This document shows, piece after piece, positions 10,013 to 17,639 of a DNA stretch of 34,535 nt (the stretch's first letter is position 1; every line of letters begins with the position of its first letter). A program made the position numbers and the translations under genes. Source of the DNA: a virus; IMG/VR virus record IMGVR_UViG_3300044681_000147, positions 1 through 34,535 of that record. One strand, written 5' to 3'. Below the pieces are notes generated by a model. The model did no database searches. It was not told where the DNA came from and worked only from the letters and a program-made list of their open reading frames with translations.

Positions 10013-10783
10013 CTATCCAGCACTATCCAGATATTGAATGTTAAACCCATAATCACTGTCTGGACTTACATTGATTGGGTCTGGTGTAATATTTATGTTG
10101 TGAATAAAATGGTCACTATCCGCACCCATGAGGTACAGATTATTATTGACTTCACGAATGATACCGTATTCAGCCTGTGGCCCATAGAAAGCAATTTTCA
10201 TGGTGAACTGTAAATCGTAAACGATGGTTCTTCTCTGTTCTACAGGCCCATCATAGGTGTCAGAAAATGTCACACCCGTAAGAATAATAGGGACATCTTC
10301 CTTGATGTCAACTTCATCCATAAATGGTTTCACAGTAACGGAGTACTGAGGATTGAAGTAGGGAATGATTTGTTCTACAATCTGAAGTGCATCGTCTTGA
10401 GACTTTGCATATATGCTCAGTTGGAACATAATATCATAAGGGACAGCCGTATAGAACTTCTGTCTTTTATTGTCTGAAGTACCCGCAAGAGAAAATGTGT
10501 TTACCTTAGGCAACTGTCTCTGAGGGTCATACATCATCTGAACAATTTCAAATGACATACGGGGGAGTTTCACGGCCACTCTACGTTCCGCATCTTCCCC
10601 ATTCTGCATTGCATCAAGTCGTTCGATAAATTGTCTACGAGGAGCATACGAAAGAGGAACTTTAATCTGAGATAAAATTCCACCCGAAGCATCTTCTCTG
10701 AGAACAAAGATGTTGTTGAACATCGATCCAAAGACCGAAACAGCTGTTCGAACTCTCTTGTTATAAAACCAAGTACCAAACAT
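10013..10783 (-). CDS. 15: Tail terminator / sheath stabiliser (gp15-like)
   Basis: A 256-residue protein (T4 gp15: 272) starting MFGTWFYNKRVRTAVSVFGSMF, the typical gp15 start. PRMSFEIVQMMYDPQRQLPK follows around residue 74-93, and a conserved DIMFQLSIYAKSQDDALQIVEQI region around 118-140. It caps the tail tube and sheath as a hexamer and joins the tail to the neck. Its ATG shares one base with the gene 14 stop (TAATG), showing coupling. Gene order 13-14-15-16-17 matches T4. Confidence 0.94.
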   Translation of the reverse strand: MFGTWFYNKRVRTAVSVFGSMFNNIFVLREDASGGILSQIKVPLSYAPRRQFIERLDAMQNGEDAERRVAVKLPRMSFEIVQMMYDPQRQLPKVNTFSLAGTSDNKRQKFYTAVPYDIMFQLSIYAKSQDDALQIVEQIIPYFNPQYSVTVKPFMDEVDIKEDVPIILTGVTFSDTYDGPVEQRRTIVYDLQFTMKIAFYGPQAEYGIIREVNNNLYLMGADSDHFIHNINITPDPINVSPDSDYGFNIQYLDSAG

Positions 10784-12513
10784 TATGAAATATCTCCAAA
10801 GGGATTGCTTTCTGAGAAGTCTAGGAAGTCAGCCTCAAAGTTATCAAAAATAGTATTCTGATAAGTTGTTTGAATTGCCTGAACTTCCGCAACAGCAGAG
10901 GTCACCCAAGACTTAGTACCAGAAGTTGTTCTCTTGTCTGTTTGGAACTCATGGAATTTACCATCCGTAGAACCAACATGAGCAACTTGTAATATTCTAT
11001 CCGAATCTGACCAACGAGTAACTTCACCCGATATAGTATATGTATCATAAACCTGAGTAATTGTATCACCCACCTCAAAGTTTTCACCAGAAACGGGAGA
11101 AGAAATTGTAACGGTAGGTGTGGACATATAGTTGAAACCAGCGTTCACAATAGTATAACCTACAAATTCTCCGTTGGCAACTGTTGCGGTAACTGTAGGT
11201 TTAGTTCCGTCTGCATGTTCTAATAGAGAAGTCAGTGAGTCACTATCAAAGGCCGCAGTAGGAACAGAAATGGTGTCTGAGTCATCAACGTATCTGTCTG
11301 CAAGAACCGTGTTCTCTGATCCAACTGAAATCTTAATCTCATCAAGGTAACCGTTGATACCACCCCATTCAACACCATCAAGTTCACGTGCAGAAACAGC
11401 ACCAATAGAATATGAACCACTAATGAAATCTCCAACGTTTGGTAACGTGTAGTTTCCAACTCTCGTTCCATCAATGAACACGTACATTCTATCACTATCG
11501 ACACCAATACCAACATGATGCCAAGAACCAATTCCAAGGTTAGTTTCAGCAAGGGCCTGAACACTATCACCTTCGTTATCACCACGAGAATAGTACAGAC
11601 CACCACCAGAACCAACACCGATCATTAATTGATTAGTAGCATCGGTTTGACCGCCGCCAATAAGGAATAATGATCCTTTGTCTGTAGGATAGGCGTCAAC
11701 TTTAACAAACATCTCAACAAAACCATTATTAGAAATTAGTTTGAGATTGTCTGCTTCGATACCTCTACCAATATTCATATTGATCGAGTTGTATCCGAAT
11801 TTCTTGACAGATTGTGTAGTAAAATCTGAGAAAGAAAACTCTACACGTCCATCACTATCATACCCGTGGCCAGGATGTGTGATTGTCAATTCAGTCAATT
11901 CACCCTGTGTTCCAATAGTCGCAGTTGCTGCGGCTACAGAACCCGTAGTATCATTGGGATGCATGGTTAATGCGTATTGGTATGCACCCTCATATTCGAT
12001 AACATCAACATCATCGATACCAGTATCAAAGTCTTCATCACTGTATTCAAAGAGTTCACACTGGAGTCTGAATGTGGGAAGTTGGCTGAGTTGATAGAAA
12101 GGAGTTTCCGTTTCCACCTTAGTGATTTGCCAGATAGATTTTGCAAGAGGCAGATAAATGACATCACCTTCACGTGGACGGAACTTCTGAGAATCTAGGT
12201 AATTGCCAATAAGGTTCTTCCAACGTCTACGTGCAACAATAAAGGTAGCTTGGTCACGTAACTCAATACCGAATTTCGTAAACAAGTCACCCTCGCCTTG
12301 CCAACCTTCAGTATTTTCAACATACATTTCCACCTTGTACGCATCAGTAAAACGTGACGGTACATCGTCAAGAAAGATAGTATCCTTGTTGACAATTTCT
12401 CTTGGAATGTAATATACGTCCTGACCGTAAAACTTTAAAGATTCAATTACCAAATCTTCATATAAGTTTTGTTCTGAACGTACACTTTGACTGATATACG
12501 GATTAGTTGGCAT
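10783..12513 (-). CDS. 14: Neck protein gp14-like, enlarged by a LamG domain
   Basis: A 576-residue protein between genes 13 and 15; T4 gp14 has 256. Residues 1-180 are clearly gp14-like (NLYEDLVIESLKFYGQDVYYIPREIV, FRPREGDVIYLPLAKSIWQITKVE), as is the end (FEVGDTITQVYD..., DNFEADFLDFSESNPFGDI). Between them sit a Gly-Tyr beta repeat (~190-230, THPGHGYDSDG), a laminin-G/concanavalin-A-like domain (~240-408) and a second copy of the beta repeat (~438-475, NAGFNYMSTPTVTI). The gp14 part should join the neck between portal and tail. The LamG part could display a sugar-binding surface at the collar. Nothing suggests a frameshift: the frame is continuous and the C-terminal gp14 part is intact. ATG lies 4 bases after the gene 13 stop. 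Confidence 0.92.
   Translation of the reverse strand: MPTNPYISQSVRSEQNLYEDLVIESLKFYGQDVYYIPREIVNKDTIFLDDVPSRFTDAYKVEMYVENTEGWQGEGDLFTKFGIELRDQATFIVARRRWKNLIGNYLDSQKFRPREGDVIYLPLAKSIWQITKVETETPFYQLSQLPTFRLQCELFEYSDEDFDTGIDDVDVIEYEGAYQYALTMHPNDTTGSVAAATATIGTQGELTELTITHPGHGYDSDGRVEFSFSDFTTQSVKKFGYNSINMNIGRGIEADNLKLISNNGFVEMFVKVDAYPTDKGSLFLIGGGQTDATNQLMIGVGSGGGLYYSRGDNEGDSVQALAETNLGIGSWHHVGIGVDSDRMYVFIDGTRVGNYTLPNVGDFISGSYSIGAVSARELDGVEWGGINGYLDEIKISVGSENTVLADRYVDDSDTISVPTAAFDSDSLTSLLEHADGTKPTVTATVANGEFVGYTIVNAGFNYMSTPTVTISSPVSGENFEVGDTITQVYDTYTISGEVTRWSDSDRILQVAHVGSTDGKFHEFQTDKRTTSGTKSWVTSAVAEVQAIQTTYQNTIFDNFEADFLDFSESNPFGDIS
11290..11796 (-). other. LamG / concanavalin-A-like domain inside gp14
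   Basis: Protein-level domain at about residues 240-408 of the gene 14 product. Diagnostic features are the strand pairs FVEMFVKVDAYPTDKGSLFLI and NQLMIGVGSGGGLYY, and especially GSWHHVGIGVDSDRMYVFIDG (about 329-349). The last is the W-H-H-V...Y-V-D-G core of LamG-type sandwiches. It ends with INGYLDEIKIS, another family hallmark. Such domains bind glycans or proteins. Confidence 0.82.
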
Positions 12514-12517
12514 TATA

Positions 12518-13285
12518 TTATCCTATAAAGAACATAGGGCCAATATCTTCTTCTTCCCTGAACTTGGTTAAGATTCTATCGATATCGGTTTGTGCATCTT
12601 CATAGATTTGTCTACCACTAATGGTGACACCGCCAGGAAGTTGCATCCCTTCAAATTTTAACAGGTTTTGTCCCCACTGTTTCTTAATTAAGGCTATCGT
12701 ATATTCCTTGAGGAACTTGTGGTTCCATAGAGAATTATAGTCTGAGTTTGAACCAGCGTTTGGATTACGCATACCATAAACCTCAAACACAAGATAATCC
12801 CCTACCTTTAATTTATCCGCAGAAATATTAAAGTTGATTCTGTCGTACTGTCGATCAAAACGAATAATCGGTTGACCCGTCAATCTCATATCAATAAGAG
12901 ACAGATGTTGTTGCATTTGATCGTAGTAGGCAAGATCACTTAAAATACCACCACTTGCCAAATCGGTAATTGTATAACGCATGAATTGCCATGCATCACT
13001 GAACCAACCAGTGTTGGCACCCGTGTATGACATAGGAAGCATTCTAACAACAGTAATTAAAGGTTCTGAAAAACTAATGTATTGGTTGTCTATATCAGTC
13101 TGTGTCAATTGATGAGACAGATAGAACCTTTTACTACCGTCCGGATGATATTCACGGAACCATTGAAGGCCTTCGTCAACCCTATCTTCCAATTGTTCAT
13201 CATCAATATTAATTTCAACAACAGGATGACCTAAAGCACGAAGGCAATAGTCTATAAATTCATCTCTAGTATTAGGTAATGCCAT
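12518..13285 (-). CDS. 13: Neck protein (gp13-like)
   Basis: A 255-residue protein (T4 gp13: 309) starting MALPNTRDEFIDYCLRALGH and continuing VVEINIDDEQLEDRVDEGLQWF, the characteristic gp13 head-completion start. The C-terminal part has YTIALIKKQWGQNLLKFEG and LPGGVTISGRQIYEDA (~195-230). It forms the adaptor ring under the portal with gp14, closing the filled head and accepting the tail. AAGGAA precedes the start. It is 10 bases downstream of the large fiber gene. Confidence 0.94.
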   Translation of the reverse strand: MALPNTRDEFIDYCLRALGHPVVEINIDDEQLEDRVDEGLQWFREYHPDGSKRFYLSHQLTQTDIDNQYISFSEPLITVVRMLPMSYTGANTGWFSDAWQFMRYTITDLASGGILSDLAYYDQMQQHLSLIDMRLTGQPIIRFDRQYDRINFNISADKLKVGDYLVFEVYGMRNPNAGSNSDYNSLWNHKFLKEYTIALIKKQWGQNLLKFEGMQLPGGVTISGRQIYEDAQTDIDRILTKFREEEDIGPMFFIG

Positions 13286-13295
13286 GTGTTATTCC

Positions 13296-16200
13296 TTAAT
13301 TCAACAAGGTTCCTGCCGAGTTGTAAACATTGATTCTATAGTAAGAACCGTGTTGACCATCTAATAAGTCAGCATCCAATCCAGAGGTTGCACCATCCAC
13401 AGTCTTGATTGCAGTCAAGAGTTCGTTTGCAGTAGAGTATGTCTCACTGAACGAGAACTGACCAGTTCCGCTGTTGTAGGACAAGTCACCAGATGCAGAG
13501 AAAAGTCCTCTAATCTGACCAGATGTTCTGTCCGAATCTGTGTAAGACATAACACCAGTGTTTGGATCATAGGACAAATTACCACCCGCACTGATTGCCG
13601 CTCTTGCTCTTGCATCTGTGTAGTACTTATTAGTACCTTCAGGTAGATCATCTGTCTTAAGGTGACTGATACCATCACTATCAATTACAGCGGTAAGTTG
13701 TACGTTACCACTTCCGTCAAATGATACCGCAGAAGCTGTCACGTCTCCAGTGATAGAGAAGTTACGTCCAGTTGCAAGTGTCGTTGCTGTTCCAGCATTA
13801 CCTGTCACATTACCTGTCACATTACCTATCAGTGCAGCAGTAATCGTACCCGCAGAGAAGTTACCACTTGCATCACGTGCAACAATTGCAGAAGCAGTGT
13901 TCGCATTCGTTGCAGTAGTCGCAGAGTTCTGTACCTTACCCGCAGTCGAGATCGTTGCAAGTTTGGTGTCTGCAATCGCAGCAGATGCATTGATGTCTGC
14001 GTTGACAATGGCTCCTGCGGTGATCGAAGTCGAGATGGTAATATTCTGACTACCATTGAACGACACACCACTACCAGTGATGTCACCTGAGATACCAATT
14101 GTTCTTCCGGTTTCAAGAAGTGTTGCAGTGTCCGCATTACCTGTTACGTTACCTATAACATTACCTTCTAGCGTACCTAATTTCAATGTACCGAGTGTTG
14201 CGGAGTCTAGTGAAATATCACCTTCTGGTTCTGGGTCATACTCTTCTACTAGAGTGAATTTCTCTTCAGATGCATCGAAGAACATACCTATGTGAGTATA
14301 CCCAACACCCGATGTACCAGTGTTTCTGTTAGAGAACCAACCAGTATCTACGTTTACGGGACTTGCAGAACCTTTCCACGTGTCTCCGGATGTGTGACCT
14401 GTTGTCGCAACAAACTCAACTTTGATACCATAGTTTAGTTCTTGTTCACTACCAGTGATTGCAACACCTGTGGCTTCCGGAGACGCTGAATCTGCGAAAC
14501 CCCATTCGAAGGTATCTGTACCACCAGTTCCGTCAATCTTTACGTAGAACTTCTGGTTAGTTGCAGTTCCCTTATAGTGACCTTTCAATGTCGCATCGTC
14601 AAGACCTGAACCAGTAAATGTAGTGTTTGCTTCACCAATAGTATCACCGGCGTTCAAGTAGTTGAACGCACCACCGATTGAGATGTTCTCTGTTGCGGCA
14701 ATTGTCTGCGTACCCAATACAGTTAGGTTACCGCCAACTGTTACGTCTTGGTCAAAACGTGCATCGCCTGTAGTACGAGTTACTTCGAATGAGTGATCTA
14801 CGATATTTACAAGAATCGAACCACCGCCTCCAGCTGAGTCCGCAGTAAGAACATAACCCAAGTCTACCGCAAAGTATGGATATGTCGGTGCTACCGTTGA
14901 GAATGTACCTGGCGTAGTACCTACGTGTACTTTGTCACCCGCAGAGAATGCAGATGTGTCTACGTTGTTCACAACACCCTTGGTGGTCACATAACCGTAT
15001 GAACCATTCGCAATGTCATGTGTCGCAAGACCAATAGCATGTACTTTATTAGCATCGGTAGCATCTGCCAGTTCGATGGTTGGAGTATTACTTTGAACAC
15101 CATTTACATGAACAGGTTGACCATTGTTGATTTGAGAACCAGAGTTATTGTATACACGAACCCAATCTTCTTGACCAATCTGCATTGTGATGTCAGGTAC
15201 ATCATTCTTGAATGCAATTGCACCATTTGCAGAATCGTAGAAGATTGTACCTTCTGCATATTCTGGAACAGTACCGTCAAATGTAATCGCTTTGGTTGTT
15301 ACTTTACCTACCGCCTCTAGTTCACCCGATGTCTTGACCTTACCTGAGAATCTTGCACGAGTCCAGTGTTCACGCACAGGGTTGATAAAGATAGCACCAT
15401 CGTTCGAGTCAGCAATAACAACCGTACCCAACTCAAATGGATATCCACTATCGGGGCCAATGGCATGCTTTACCCAACCACCTTGTTGTACGTTACAGAT
15501 ATATGCACGGTCACCCACCGAGAATGGGCCACCTGTGGTTTGACGGATCGTGTCAATACCACGAACGATACCTTGAGTGGTAATGTAACCATGCGCTCCG
15601 TCCGGTATATCTTGTGTTGCCATACCGATAGGGCCAGAGATAGGAGTATTCGCAAGAGTCTTTTCTACTGTAGGTGAACCGTCTGAGTGTGCCCCTACAA
15701 ATCGAATCGTACTACCGTTTTGAATCGTCTCGCCAGTGTCGTTGTATACGTAAACAACTTCTTCCTGACCGATGTTGATCGCAACGTCTGTGTTACCTTC
15801 TTTGGTTCTTGGAATGAAAGTAAGACCTTTGGCACCATCCGAGTCAAAGTATAGTTCGCCACCAACAAGACTTGCGTCTGGTTTAGGCGCACTTGTTCTT
15901 CGTGTCAGTACAATGTTGTCCAGTGCCGCAGAGTCCGCAGTAACTTTACCAAACTGTACGTCATCTGTCGTACCAACAGACTGTGCAATCGCAATCGAAC
16001 CGTTTGTAATTGTGACACCCGTACCGCCCGAGAAGTGAGCACGAGTTTCAGCTGCAGAAGGCCCTGTGTACGTGATTGTACCTGTACCTGCATTATAGGA
16101 CAGCGAACCATCACCACCCGCATCAGTGACAGAGATGGCGTTTTTCGCATCACTATCCGCACGTGCTGTGGTGTAGTATAAGTTGTTACCTTCAGAAAGG

Positions 16201-17639
16201 TCAGTAGTTGACTTACCAGTAAATGCAGTATCAAACCTTGCTTGTGTATAGTAAAGGTTAGAACCTTCGGCAAGATTACTTGTTGTAAACGGATCAAGGG
16301 TGACTGTAGTATTGTAACTATTTCCGTCTGTAGTGGCAATAGTAAGGTTGCCACCCACACTATCAAATGTTATACTAGAAACAGCATCAATGGATACTGT
16401 ACCGGCACTATCAATCTGTCCCTGTGCATTAACTGTGAATACAGGGATAGCAGTTGTAGAACCGTATGTGCCATTGGTGACACCGGAGTTCGTGATAGAG
16501 AATACACCAGAAGCACTATCGTATGTAAGACCAGTACCACCAACAAAGTGGGCTCTAGTCTCTGTAGCGGATGCACCAATGAAAGTAAATCTACCTGTAT
16601 CTGAGTCATAGGTTAATGACCCATCACCACCATTCTGTTGAAGACCCAAGGCATTACGAGCCCTAAGTTCTGTGAAGTAGAGATTGGTGTTGCCTTCCAA
16701 TAAAGCGTTTGTGGTCTTACCACCAAAATCAGAATCAAATCTTGATGAAAGGTAATATAAGTTTGTACCTTCTGCAACATCCGTTGTTGTTTTGGTTGCA
16801 AGTCTAGCGTCAAATCTTGCTTCTGTGTAGTAGAGATTAGTACCCTCATCAAGATTTGATGTTGTTTTTTCATTAAATGCGCTATCAAATCTTCCCTGTG
16901 TGTAATACAGATTATTACCTTCAGTTAAATCTGAAGTTGTATTGTCACCAAAATCACTATCAAAACGAGCAGTCGTATAGTAAAGGTTATTACCTTCAGT
17001 CAGATTGTCTGTTGTTTTGGTTGCAAGACGAGCATCGAAGTCACTATCTACACGCCCTTGGGTGTAGTATAAGTTTGCGCCTTCGGTTAAATCTGCTGTA
17101 GTAAACGGAGCAAGGGTGATGTCTGCCGTAAATGTTGCAGCATCAGCTGTGGTAATAGTTAGTTTACCATTGATGGGGTCGTAACCAAATGAGTCTACAG
17201 TGGCGGGAGTTACCGTTGAAATTGTGGTGATTTGCCCTTGCGAGTCAACAGTTAGTACGGGAACGAGTACAGTACTGCCGTATTGGCCGGGCGTGACACC
17301 AGTTGCGGTAATCTCAATGATACCTGTGTTCGCATTATAGGTAATACCTGTCCCAGCAGAGATTGCATTTTTTGCATCTGAATCTGCTCTGGATGACTGG
17401 TAATAAAGATTTGTATTTCCTTCTGCAAAAGCATCGGTAGTAAAAGTGTTAGAATCACCAAGTGCAATTGATTGACTATTGACGGTTATCGCATAATTCT
17501 CTAATTTAGAATTAGGAATTGTTGGAAGATTGATAAGATCAATCTCACCATCAGAGCCTGCAAGTTGTGACCTATCGTCTTTTACGAAACCAGATGCCGT
17601 CAACAGACTGGACAGATATCTAGCTTTTGATTGTGCCAT
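13296..17639 (-). CDS. Giant tail-fiber protein with tandem EGxNLYY repeats
   Basis: A 1447-residue Ser/Thr/Asp/Gly-rich beta protein. Residues ~70-345 carry repeated EG(N)NLYYTxxRFDSxF units of about 25 residues, recurring near 470-500 and near 1375. The middle holds two related ~170-residue domains, each beginning (I)GQE-x-V-x-VYN and containing HGYITTQGIVRG or YGYVTTKGVVNN. The last third has fiber-type repeats (GNVTGNADTATLLETGR, GISGDITGSGVSFNGSQN) like those in T4 gp37/lambda side-tail-fiber shafts. It ends INVYNSAGTLLN, nearly the same as the fiber-like protein at 30153-33149. It is probably a trimeric long tail fiber subunit. Which T4 fiber gene it replaces is unclear. A late promoter and 5' hairpin lie upstream; AAAGGGAA is the ribosome site. 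Confidence 0.82.
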   Translation of the reverse strand: MAQSKARYLSSLLTASGFVKDDRSQLAGSDGEIDLINLPTIPNSKLENYAITVNSQSIALGDSNTFTTDAFAEGNTNLYYQSSRADSDAKNAISAGTGITYNANTGIIEITATGVTPGQYGSTVLVPVLTVDSQGQITTISTVTPATVDSFGYDPINGKLTITTADAATFTADITLAPFTTADLTEGANLYYTQGRVDSDFDARLATKTTDNLTEGNNLYYTTARFDSDFGDNTTSDLTEGNNLYYTQGRFDSAFNEKTTSNLDEGTNLYYTEARFDARLATKTTTDVAEGTNLYYLSSRFDSDFGGKTTNALLEGNTNLYFTELRARNALGLQQNGGDGSLTYDSDTGRFTFIGASATETRAHFVGGTGLTYDSASGVFSITNSGVTNGTYGSTTAIPVFTVNAQGQIDSAGTVSIDAVSSITFDSVGGNLTIATTDGNSYNTTVTLDPFTTSNLAEGSNLYYTQARFDTAFTGKSTTDLSEGNNLYYTTARADSDAKNAISVTDAGGDGSLSYNAGTGTITYTGPSAAETRAHFSGGTGVTITNGSIAIAQSVGTTDDVQFGKVTADSAALDNIVLTRRTSAPKPDASLVGGELYFDSDGAKGLTFIPRTKEGNTDVAINIGQEEVVYVYNDTGETIQNGSTIRFVGAHSDGSPTVEKTLANTPISGPIGMATQDIPDGAHGYITTQGIVRGIDTIRQTTGGPFSVGDRAYICNVQQGGWVKHAIGPDSGYPFELGTVVIADSNDGAIFINPVREHWTRARFSGKVKTSGELEAVGKVTTKAITFDGTVPEYAEGTIFYDSANGAIAFKNDVPDITMQIGQEDWVRVYNNSGSQINNGQPVHVNGVQSNTPTIELADATDANKVHAIGLATHDIANGSYGYVTTKGVVNNVDTSAFSAGDKVHVGTTPGTFSTVAPTYPYFAVDLGYVLTADSAGGGGSILVNIVDHSFEVTRTTGDARFDQDVTVGGNLTVLGTQTIAATENISIGGAFNYLNAGDTIGEANTTFTGSGLDDATLKGHYKGTATNQKFYVKIDGTGGTDTFEWGFADSASPEATGVAITGSEQELNYGIKVEFVATTGHTSGDTWKGSASPVNVDTGWFSNRNTGTSGVGYTHIGMFFDASEEKFTLVEEYDPEPEGDISLDSATLGTLKLGTLEGNVIGNVTGNADTATLLETGRTIGISGDITGSGVSFNGSQNITISTSITAGAIVNADINASAAIADTKLATISTAGKVQNSATTATNANTASAIVARDASGNFSAGTITAALIGNVTGNVTGNAGTATTLATGRNFSITGDVTASAVSFDGSGNVQLTAVIDSDGISHLKTDDLPEGTNKYYTDARARAAISAGGNLSYDPNTGVMSYTDSDRTSGQIRGLFSASGDLSYNSGTGQFSFSETYSTANELLTAIKTVDGATSGLDADLLDGQHGSYYRINVYNSAGTLLN
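16640..17110 (-). repeat. 75-bp tandem repeats coding EGxNLYYTxxRFDS units
   Basis: About six diverged copies of a ~25-residue unit follow each other in the fiber gene: D-L-T-E-G-N-N-L-Y-Y-T-x-x-R-F-D-S-x-F then a K-T-T linker. Copies differ mostly at silent and linker positions, so the register is kept by selection on protein. Extra isolated copies lie near 17400, 16190-16260 and 13600. Confidence 0.8.

Follow-up and report, generated by a model that had tools for sequence, protein, structure and literature searches.

A LamG domain between two Gly-Tyr repeats in the neck protein gp14 of a T4-like phage, at an insertion site that is modular among relatives

In phage T4, the neck protein gp14 (PF11649) forms a hexameric ring on the gp13 dodecamer, as described in the accessible parts of a preprint (PMC12270204). 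The same parts report that residues 178–256 of gp14 are disordered before tail attachment and bind gp15 afterwards, that domain III of gp13 holds the fibritin whiskers, and that gp14 recruits host Hfq as a second gate (PMC12270204). Host recognition by T4-like phages has been studied at the tail tip. Here, we analyse a gp14 of an uncultured T4-like phage that shares with T4 gp14 its core sequence, the gene order 13-14-15-16-17 and a C-terminal arm toward gp15, whereas approximately 290 residues are added within the arm; T4 gp14, at 256 aa, contains neither repeats nor LamG. The gene lies in the window, which is the whole stretch of 34,535 nucleotides analysed (IMG/VR record IMGVR_UViG_3300044681_000147, positions 1 to 34,535). 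Its features around the neck are as follows:

10013..10783, minus: gene 15, tail sheath stabiliser (PF16724, E 9.7e-65)
10783..12513, minus: gene 14, neck/head-closure protein gp14, 576 aa (open reading frame; Pfam, PHROG and PDB matches)
10786..11070, minus: gp14 C-terminal domain and tail, residues 482–576, common to LamG-free relatives and equivalent to the end of the T4 arm that docks gp15 (alignments)
11092..11196, minus: Gly-Tyr repeat unit 2, residues 440–474 (repeat profile)
11206..11817, minus: LamG/concanavalin-A-like domain, residues ~233–436, Pfam core 261–395 (Pfam, model and fold matches)
11860..11937, minus: Gly-Tyr repeat unit 1, residues 193–218 (repeat profile)
11965..12513, minus: gp14 conserved core, residues 1–183, comprising the T4-type barrel and the start of the C-terminal arm (PF11649 and T4 gp14 matches)
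12518..13285, minus: gene 13, neck protein gp13, 255 aa, partner ring of gp14
13296..17639, minus: fibre-like structural protein, 1447 aa, at the position of the T4 whisker gene wac (phrog_697)

Gene 14 starts with ATG and reads from 12513 to 10783, and the plus strand of this interval is full of stops. The earlier note on this DNA had placed one gp14 reading frame correctly at 10783–12513, with the strand to be corrected to minus, and had rightly put its length at more than twice that of T4 gp14. Residues 4–163 match PF11649 (E 1.4e-33), T4 gp14 (PDB 9mkb/9lu4) aligns to residues 4–164 (E 3.4e-26), and the PHROG 'head closure Hc2' covers residues 1–575 (E 6e-91). The genes on the same strand encode gp13, gp15, the small and large terminase, tail sheath, tail tube, portal, protease, scaffold and major capsid protein, and the region is therefore a T4-type structural block, in which the gene order 13-14-15-16-17 is present. 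By large terminase, the nearest named phage is Phage C48C1 (78% identity), whose gp14 of 292 aa has no insert. The predicted RNA fold at the gene 13/14 junction is unremarkable (z –0.97).

Several observations concern the neighbouring proteins and the end of gp14. Between matching ends, the window gp13 (12518–13285, minus) is 52 residues shorter than T4 gp13, a deficit close to the size of the fibritin-binding domain III, with an ambiguous alignment near that domain. The 1447-aa fibre ends in a motif, LDGQ.GSYYRINVYN..G.L.N, that recurs upstream of gp13 in many relatives with and without LamG. In addition, marine gp14 has a small C-terminal beta domain (window 10873–11076, minus, residues 480–547) for which T4 has no counterpart. 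Three of 20 members of this domain give weak matches to LSM12, an Sm-fold family (best E 3.8e-4), and a PDB profile search with the domain gave no support for an Sm-like fold. Hfq is itself an Sm-fold hexamer, and the notion that the beta domain is a built-in Sm-like ring is speculative.

The residues added to the arm contain a domain of the LamG type. Pfam assigns PF13385 (Laminin_G_3) to residues 261–395 (E 1.3e-9, 38.8 bits versus a curated cut-off of 27.6). The AlphaFold2 model, built from a 38-sequence alignment, is confident for residues ~178–545, with a mean pLDDT of 72–95 per 10-residue block across residues 181–540, and its pLDDT is below 50 for nearly all of residues 1–177 of the core. 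Structural comparison by VIA-align matches residues 233–461 to LamG and pentraxin structures, of which the LamG region of PAPP-A ranks first (Z 16.0, rmsd 3.0, 177 residues aligned), followed by a putative carbohydrate-binding protein of Bacteroides (4dqa, Z 15.3), PTX3 (15.2), laminin alpha2 LG4-5 (14.3) and NanB sialidase (13.4). The fold check thus agrees with the concanavalin-A/LamG sandwich proposed from the sequence in the earlier note; the domain does lie at the residues named there, 240–408, and is wider, spanning about 233–436. A profile of 17 gp14 LamG domains finds its best PDB sequence match in domain 4 of the arabinanase AbnA (5hon, E 1.8e-6), which according to its structure title was solved with arabino-oligosaccharide. 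LamG signature positions, such as H333, G371, G388, D391 and E392, are kept in all 23 LamG-class proteins.

Searches with single domains return few matches. The window LamG alone, scanned against IMG/VR, matched only the near twin of the window, and tblastn with the LamG of L031, a relative with a longer gp14, found no match in the named phages. By tblastn against 50,697 phage records, the window LamG matched 11 records. None of these matches falls in gp14, and the top-scoring ones are baseplate proteins (gp7) from phages of Prochlorococcus and Synechococcus, including that of P-HM2 (E 3e-4, 27% identity). An assembly artefact is ruled out as the origin of the LamG-bearing gp14, which recurs on many separately assembled contigs, some longer than 100 kb (L010, 115 kb; L020, 122 kb; L040, 144 kb; L095, 116 kb).

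Each flank of the LamG domain carries a Gly-Tyr repeat. The repeat profile was made from 12 units of three LamG-free cyanophage gp14s (L002, P-TIM68; L003, S-8S56; L004, P-HM2) and scores 21.1 bits at unit 1 and 12.3 bits at unit 2, as compared with a best score of 4.0 bits in 200 shuffles of the window gp14, which rules out a chance match. The presence of one repeat copy on either side, as first noticed by eye, is thereby borne out, and their description as a split beta repeat is not: each unit forms its own strands in the AlphaFold2 model, and LamG therefore sits between two whole units.

Comparison with relatives reveals the same site without the domain. Our core-based set consists of the 80 IMG/VR loci that are nearest by gp14 core (query residues 1–183) among the matches listed, and it describes the nearest relatives rather than T4-like phages at large. 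LamG is present in 25 of these 80 nearest listed loci, two repeats without LamG in four (L103, L106, L151 and L153, with a gp14 of 372 aa) and neither in 50, while in one (L154) gp14 stops at 200 aa. In the alignment, gp14 of L103 and L106 runs from repeat 1 straight into repeat 2 where the window has LamG, and in the gp14-core tree these two are the sister group of the LamG-bearing L025 and L026 (support 100/98). The four LamG-free proteins with adjacent repeats support the earlier suggestion that the domain had entered as if between two repeats. The comparison with close relatives that had been proposed alongside it shows, from the 80 nearest listed loci and from 16 named phages, that the insertion is not routine in all of them.

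The named phages are a picked set, mostly from the top of the similarity list and not random: T4, HTVC008M, Melnitz-3, C48C1, metaG-MbCM1, S-SZBM1, S-BM1, S-CAM9, MED4-213, S-PRM1, S-B43, S-H38, ACG-2014a, P-TIM68, S-8S56 and P-HM2. None of their 16 gp14s matches the gp14-LamG profile. Gly-Tyr units occur at the gp14 insertion site in 10 of the 16, with 2–8 units each, and are absent from the other six; three of the 10 (P-TIM68, S-8S56 and P-HM2) are the training set of the repeat profile and hence not independent. Two candidates for a longer gene 14 were rejected in this set. The 2409-aa 'gp14 neck protein' of metaG-MbCM1 (BFVD) is not gene 14, as the gene between 13 and 15 encodes 308 aa without LamG, and in HTVC008M the 1016-aa protein named 'head closure Hc2' is encoded in a group of baseplate genes, gene 14 proper encoding 290 aa, again without LamG. 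The large proteins at NC_019443 80956–88185 and NC_020484 33435–36485 are accordingly misnamed gp14 neck protein or head closure Hc2, possibly through shared repeats.

Among relatives, the gp14 site is modular and holds nothing, at least two repeats, LamG, LamG with a cupredoxin, or these with a further nested stretch. The lengths of the inserts fall into steps, from a linker of 9–19 aa through repeat arrays of 165–350 aa and LamG inserts of 290–302 aa to LamG plus cupredoxin at 397–414 aa and 547–590 aa where the nested stretch is also present. In a second set of 80 loci, ordered by their resemblance to the complete LamG protein and hence biased toward LamG, 25 gp14s are of LamG size (L006–L030), 16 are longer (L031–L045 and L050, of which L042 runs off its contig) and 39 are short; L011, L017, L035, L037, L048, L051–L055 and L083 belong to this set as well as to the core-based one. 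The gp14-LamG profile, trained on 17 gp14 LamG domains, recovers all 21 LamG-signature proteins among the relatives read; L093, L095, L096, L102, L105, L110, L112 and L113 are matches that do not copy a training row, and one extra match (L140, E 0.03) is doubtful.

The 397–414 aa class has about 108 aa extra after LamG. In L031–L045 and L050 (gp14 of 678–872 aa), a cupredoxin lies between LamG and the second repeat, for example at L039:6255–6578. Searched singly, the segment of L039 exceeds the Copper-bind cut-off (21.4 bits versus 21.2, E 3.4e-4), and those of L031, L038, L041 and L043 score below it. A profile of five segments matches PDB cupredoxins, namely nitrite reductase (E 2.4e-4) and auracyanin A (4.3e-4) and, more weakly, plastocyanin, rusticyanin and amicyanin. 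H56, C90, H95 and M98 are invariant in five of five segments, and we take them to fit type-1 copper ligands. In L038, L041 and L043, a further beta-rich stretch of about 150 aa is nested in the cupredoxin, following its first strands and preceding the histidine (L043:6372–6800; L041:6486–6870). The stretches of L043 and L041 have no Pfam match, and that of L043 is modelled with low to moderate confidence.

The gp14-core tree retains 93 of 155 sequences, with insert columns excluded; L042, L047 and L030 (open or broken) and identical copies were dropped from the first tree, and L104, L154, L002, L004 and identical copies also from the 93-core tree. On the latter, the presence or absence of LamG requires at least five changes, to which the tree assigns no direction of gain or loss, and the four insert states together require nine. 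A mosaic gp13/gp14 was observed at L012:1883–2400, with residues 1–80 like the C48C1 clade and the rest nearly as L007; it looks like a recombinant or a chimeric assembly on a single 4.6-kb contig. Such frequent switching, the sharing of one site by several different domains and the fast divergence of the cassette would fit a LamG that is a tolerated passenger, with the repeats as a permissive loop in which beta domains accumulate through recombination and have little selected function, if any. Pairwise identity across 17 LamG-class proteins averages 82% in the core and 65% in the C-terminal domain, as compared with 30% in repeat 1, 34% in LamG and 38% in repeat 2, and faster divergence can be relaxed constraint. 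The substitution pattern argues the other way. Between the window and L006, dN/dS is 0.01 for the core and 0.08 for LamG, and, of the nine pairs that yield a LamG value, eight lie between 0.07 and 0.55: L014–L015, 0.55; L028–L029, 0.32; L017–L020, 0.26; L025–L026, 0.15, on very few changes; window–L007, 0.10; L016–L019, 0.08, with saturated dS; and L031–L033, 0.07. The ninth pair, L034–L037, gives 1.14 on very few changes; L007–L011 yields no value, and several dS values among the pairs are saturated. The cassette thus evolves much more quickly than the core, for the most part under purifying selection, from which it follows that LamG is kept as a folded domain yet changes fast. Together with the signature positions kept throughout the LamG class and the retention of about 200 aa over many independent phages, this renders a mere passenger distinctly unlikely.

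The insert aligns at about residues 206–215 of T4 gp14, i.e., in the gp15-docking arm, and, because DNA passes through the interior of the ring, it should lie outward; arguing from T4, we infer that six gp14 inserts project outward at the head–tail joint. An insertion into the very arm that becomes ordered on gp15 at T4 tail joining could also mean that the cassette works inside assembly, by helping gp14 to find gp15 or by controlling the genome gate. We consider this very improbable: the adjoining gp15 is an ordinary PF16724 match, relatives with the 9–19 aa linker alone must assemble without the cassette, and the divergence pattern is that of a variable surface part.

Protein binding is common among LamG domains. 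The domain could instead be a structural or docking part that stabilises the joint or holds fibres to the neck, standing in for the fibritin whiskers of T4. In T4 the gene order is wac-13-14-15, and the window has the fibre-like gene in the wac position; a Pfam scan of 20 proteins of the window, a 34.5-kb fragment, found no Wac/fibritin family, and cyanomyoviruses as a group are reported to be without wac in the part of the source available (PMC2984593). The pairing is nevertheless not exclusive, as the C-terminal motif of the fibre adjoins, among others, the LamG-free gp14 of L046 (290 aa) as well as that of the window. Nor does LamG appear to be needed as compensation for a short gp13, which measures about 250–290 aa in almost every locus of each class (59 loci tabulated) and equally long in LamG-free relatives; near domain III, moreover, the gp13 alignment is ambiguous. 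The high divergence of LamG is also ill-suited to a fixed internal interface. A docking or whisker-like role ranks next after adhesion, and we regard it as unlikely.

The C-terminal arm of the window gp14, a subunit of the neck closure, bears a cassette of Gly-Tyr repeat, LamG and Gly-Tyr repeat. For its function we favour weak surface or glycan adhesion from a six-copy neck collar, a reading that we think has an even chance of being right. The earlier note had suggested weak glycan adhesion or a whisker-like sensing role, and both are proposals at this stage. Six outward LamG copies would form a small collar at the head–tail joint and may give the virion a weak, reversible hold on polysaccharide or other material at the surface of the host or of nearby particles, which could lengthen the encounter before the tail fibres and baseplate make committing contact; the Gly-Tyr repeats would serve as spacer and tolerated insertion point. 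Fraser is said to have proposed weak surface binding in 2006 for the Ig-like domains of tailed phages. Against a needed adhesion role stand the 50 of 80 nearest listed loci without LamG or repeats, and the cassette is therefore dispensable in the lineage. More broadly, and tentatively, since we doubt it somewhat more than we credit it, the gp14 arm may serve marine T4-like phages in general as an exchangeable display site at the neck, with nested insertions whose six mounted copies tune the outside contacts of the virion (glycans, particles, copper/redox) and leave the receptor-binding tail untouched. The nesting would place repeats in the arm, LamG between repeats, a cupredoxin with a full type-1 copper site behind LamG and, in some phages, the beta-rich stretch inside the cupredoxin. 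If the gp14 ring is such a plug-in site for binding domains, the neck would be a second, overlooked place of phage adaptation. Pairs with and without LamG, such as L025 and L103, allow a direct test of what one domain does, and gp14 illustrates how an essential, tightly packed virion protein gains domains without breakage, via a repeat spacer.

We compared the window gp14 with several known systems. Cyanophage gp14s (S-CAM9, S-PRM1, P-TIM68, S-8S56, P-HM2 and others) have the same insertion site and repeat family; theirs are 2–8 consecutive repeats without LamG, whereas the window has LamG between two. The gp7 of Prochlorococcus phage P-HM2 likewise carries a LamG-type domain on a T4-like marine virion, at the baseplate and, in the stretch read, without Gly-Tyr repeats, whereas the window LamG is at the neck. 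The contrast between collar and tail tip drawn in the earlier note is weakened in part by this distantly similar LamG in a baseplate wedge protein. In lactococcal 936-type phages, the neck passage structures differ through exchange of domains, some of them containing carbohydrate-binding domains, according to the accessible portions of two papers (PMC4759559, PMC10684548); they resemble the cassette as neck appendages that vary between close relatives and differ in being a separate gene product, the window domain lying inside gp14 rather than in a gene of its own. Anabaena phage A-1(L) shows a carbohydrate-binding module from the neck, as proposed for the window gp14, but on the separate fibre proteins gp80–gp82 rather than within gp14, and its module at the neck-fibre tip failed to bind the host, as far as the available text states (PMC10966104), which cautions against presuming primary receptor binding. 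Ig-like decoration domains, e.g., of T5/DT57C, are likewise accessory beta domains on conserved virion proteins, with another fold and other carriers, as described in the accessible part of the source (PMC10713586). Among the openly licensed PMC papers, in the parts available, we found no publication on LamG in a gp14 neck protein. The gp14 family, the LamG domain and domain shuffling at phage necks are already known; as far as the literature was searched, three things are new: a LamG domain within the closure ring of T4 type, relatives that show the site empty, and insertions nested step by step that include a cupredoxin.
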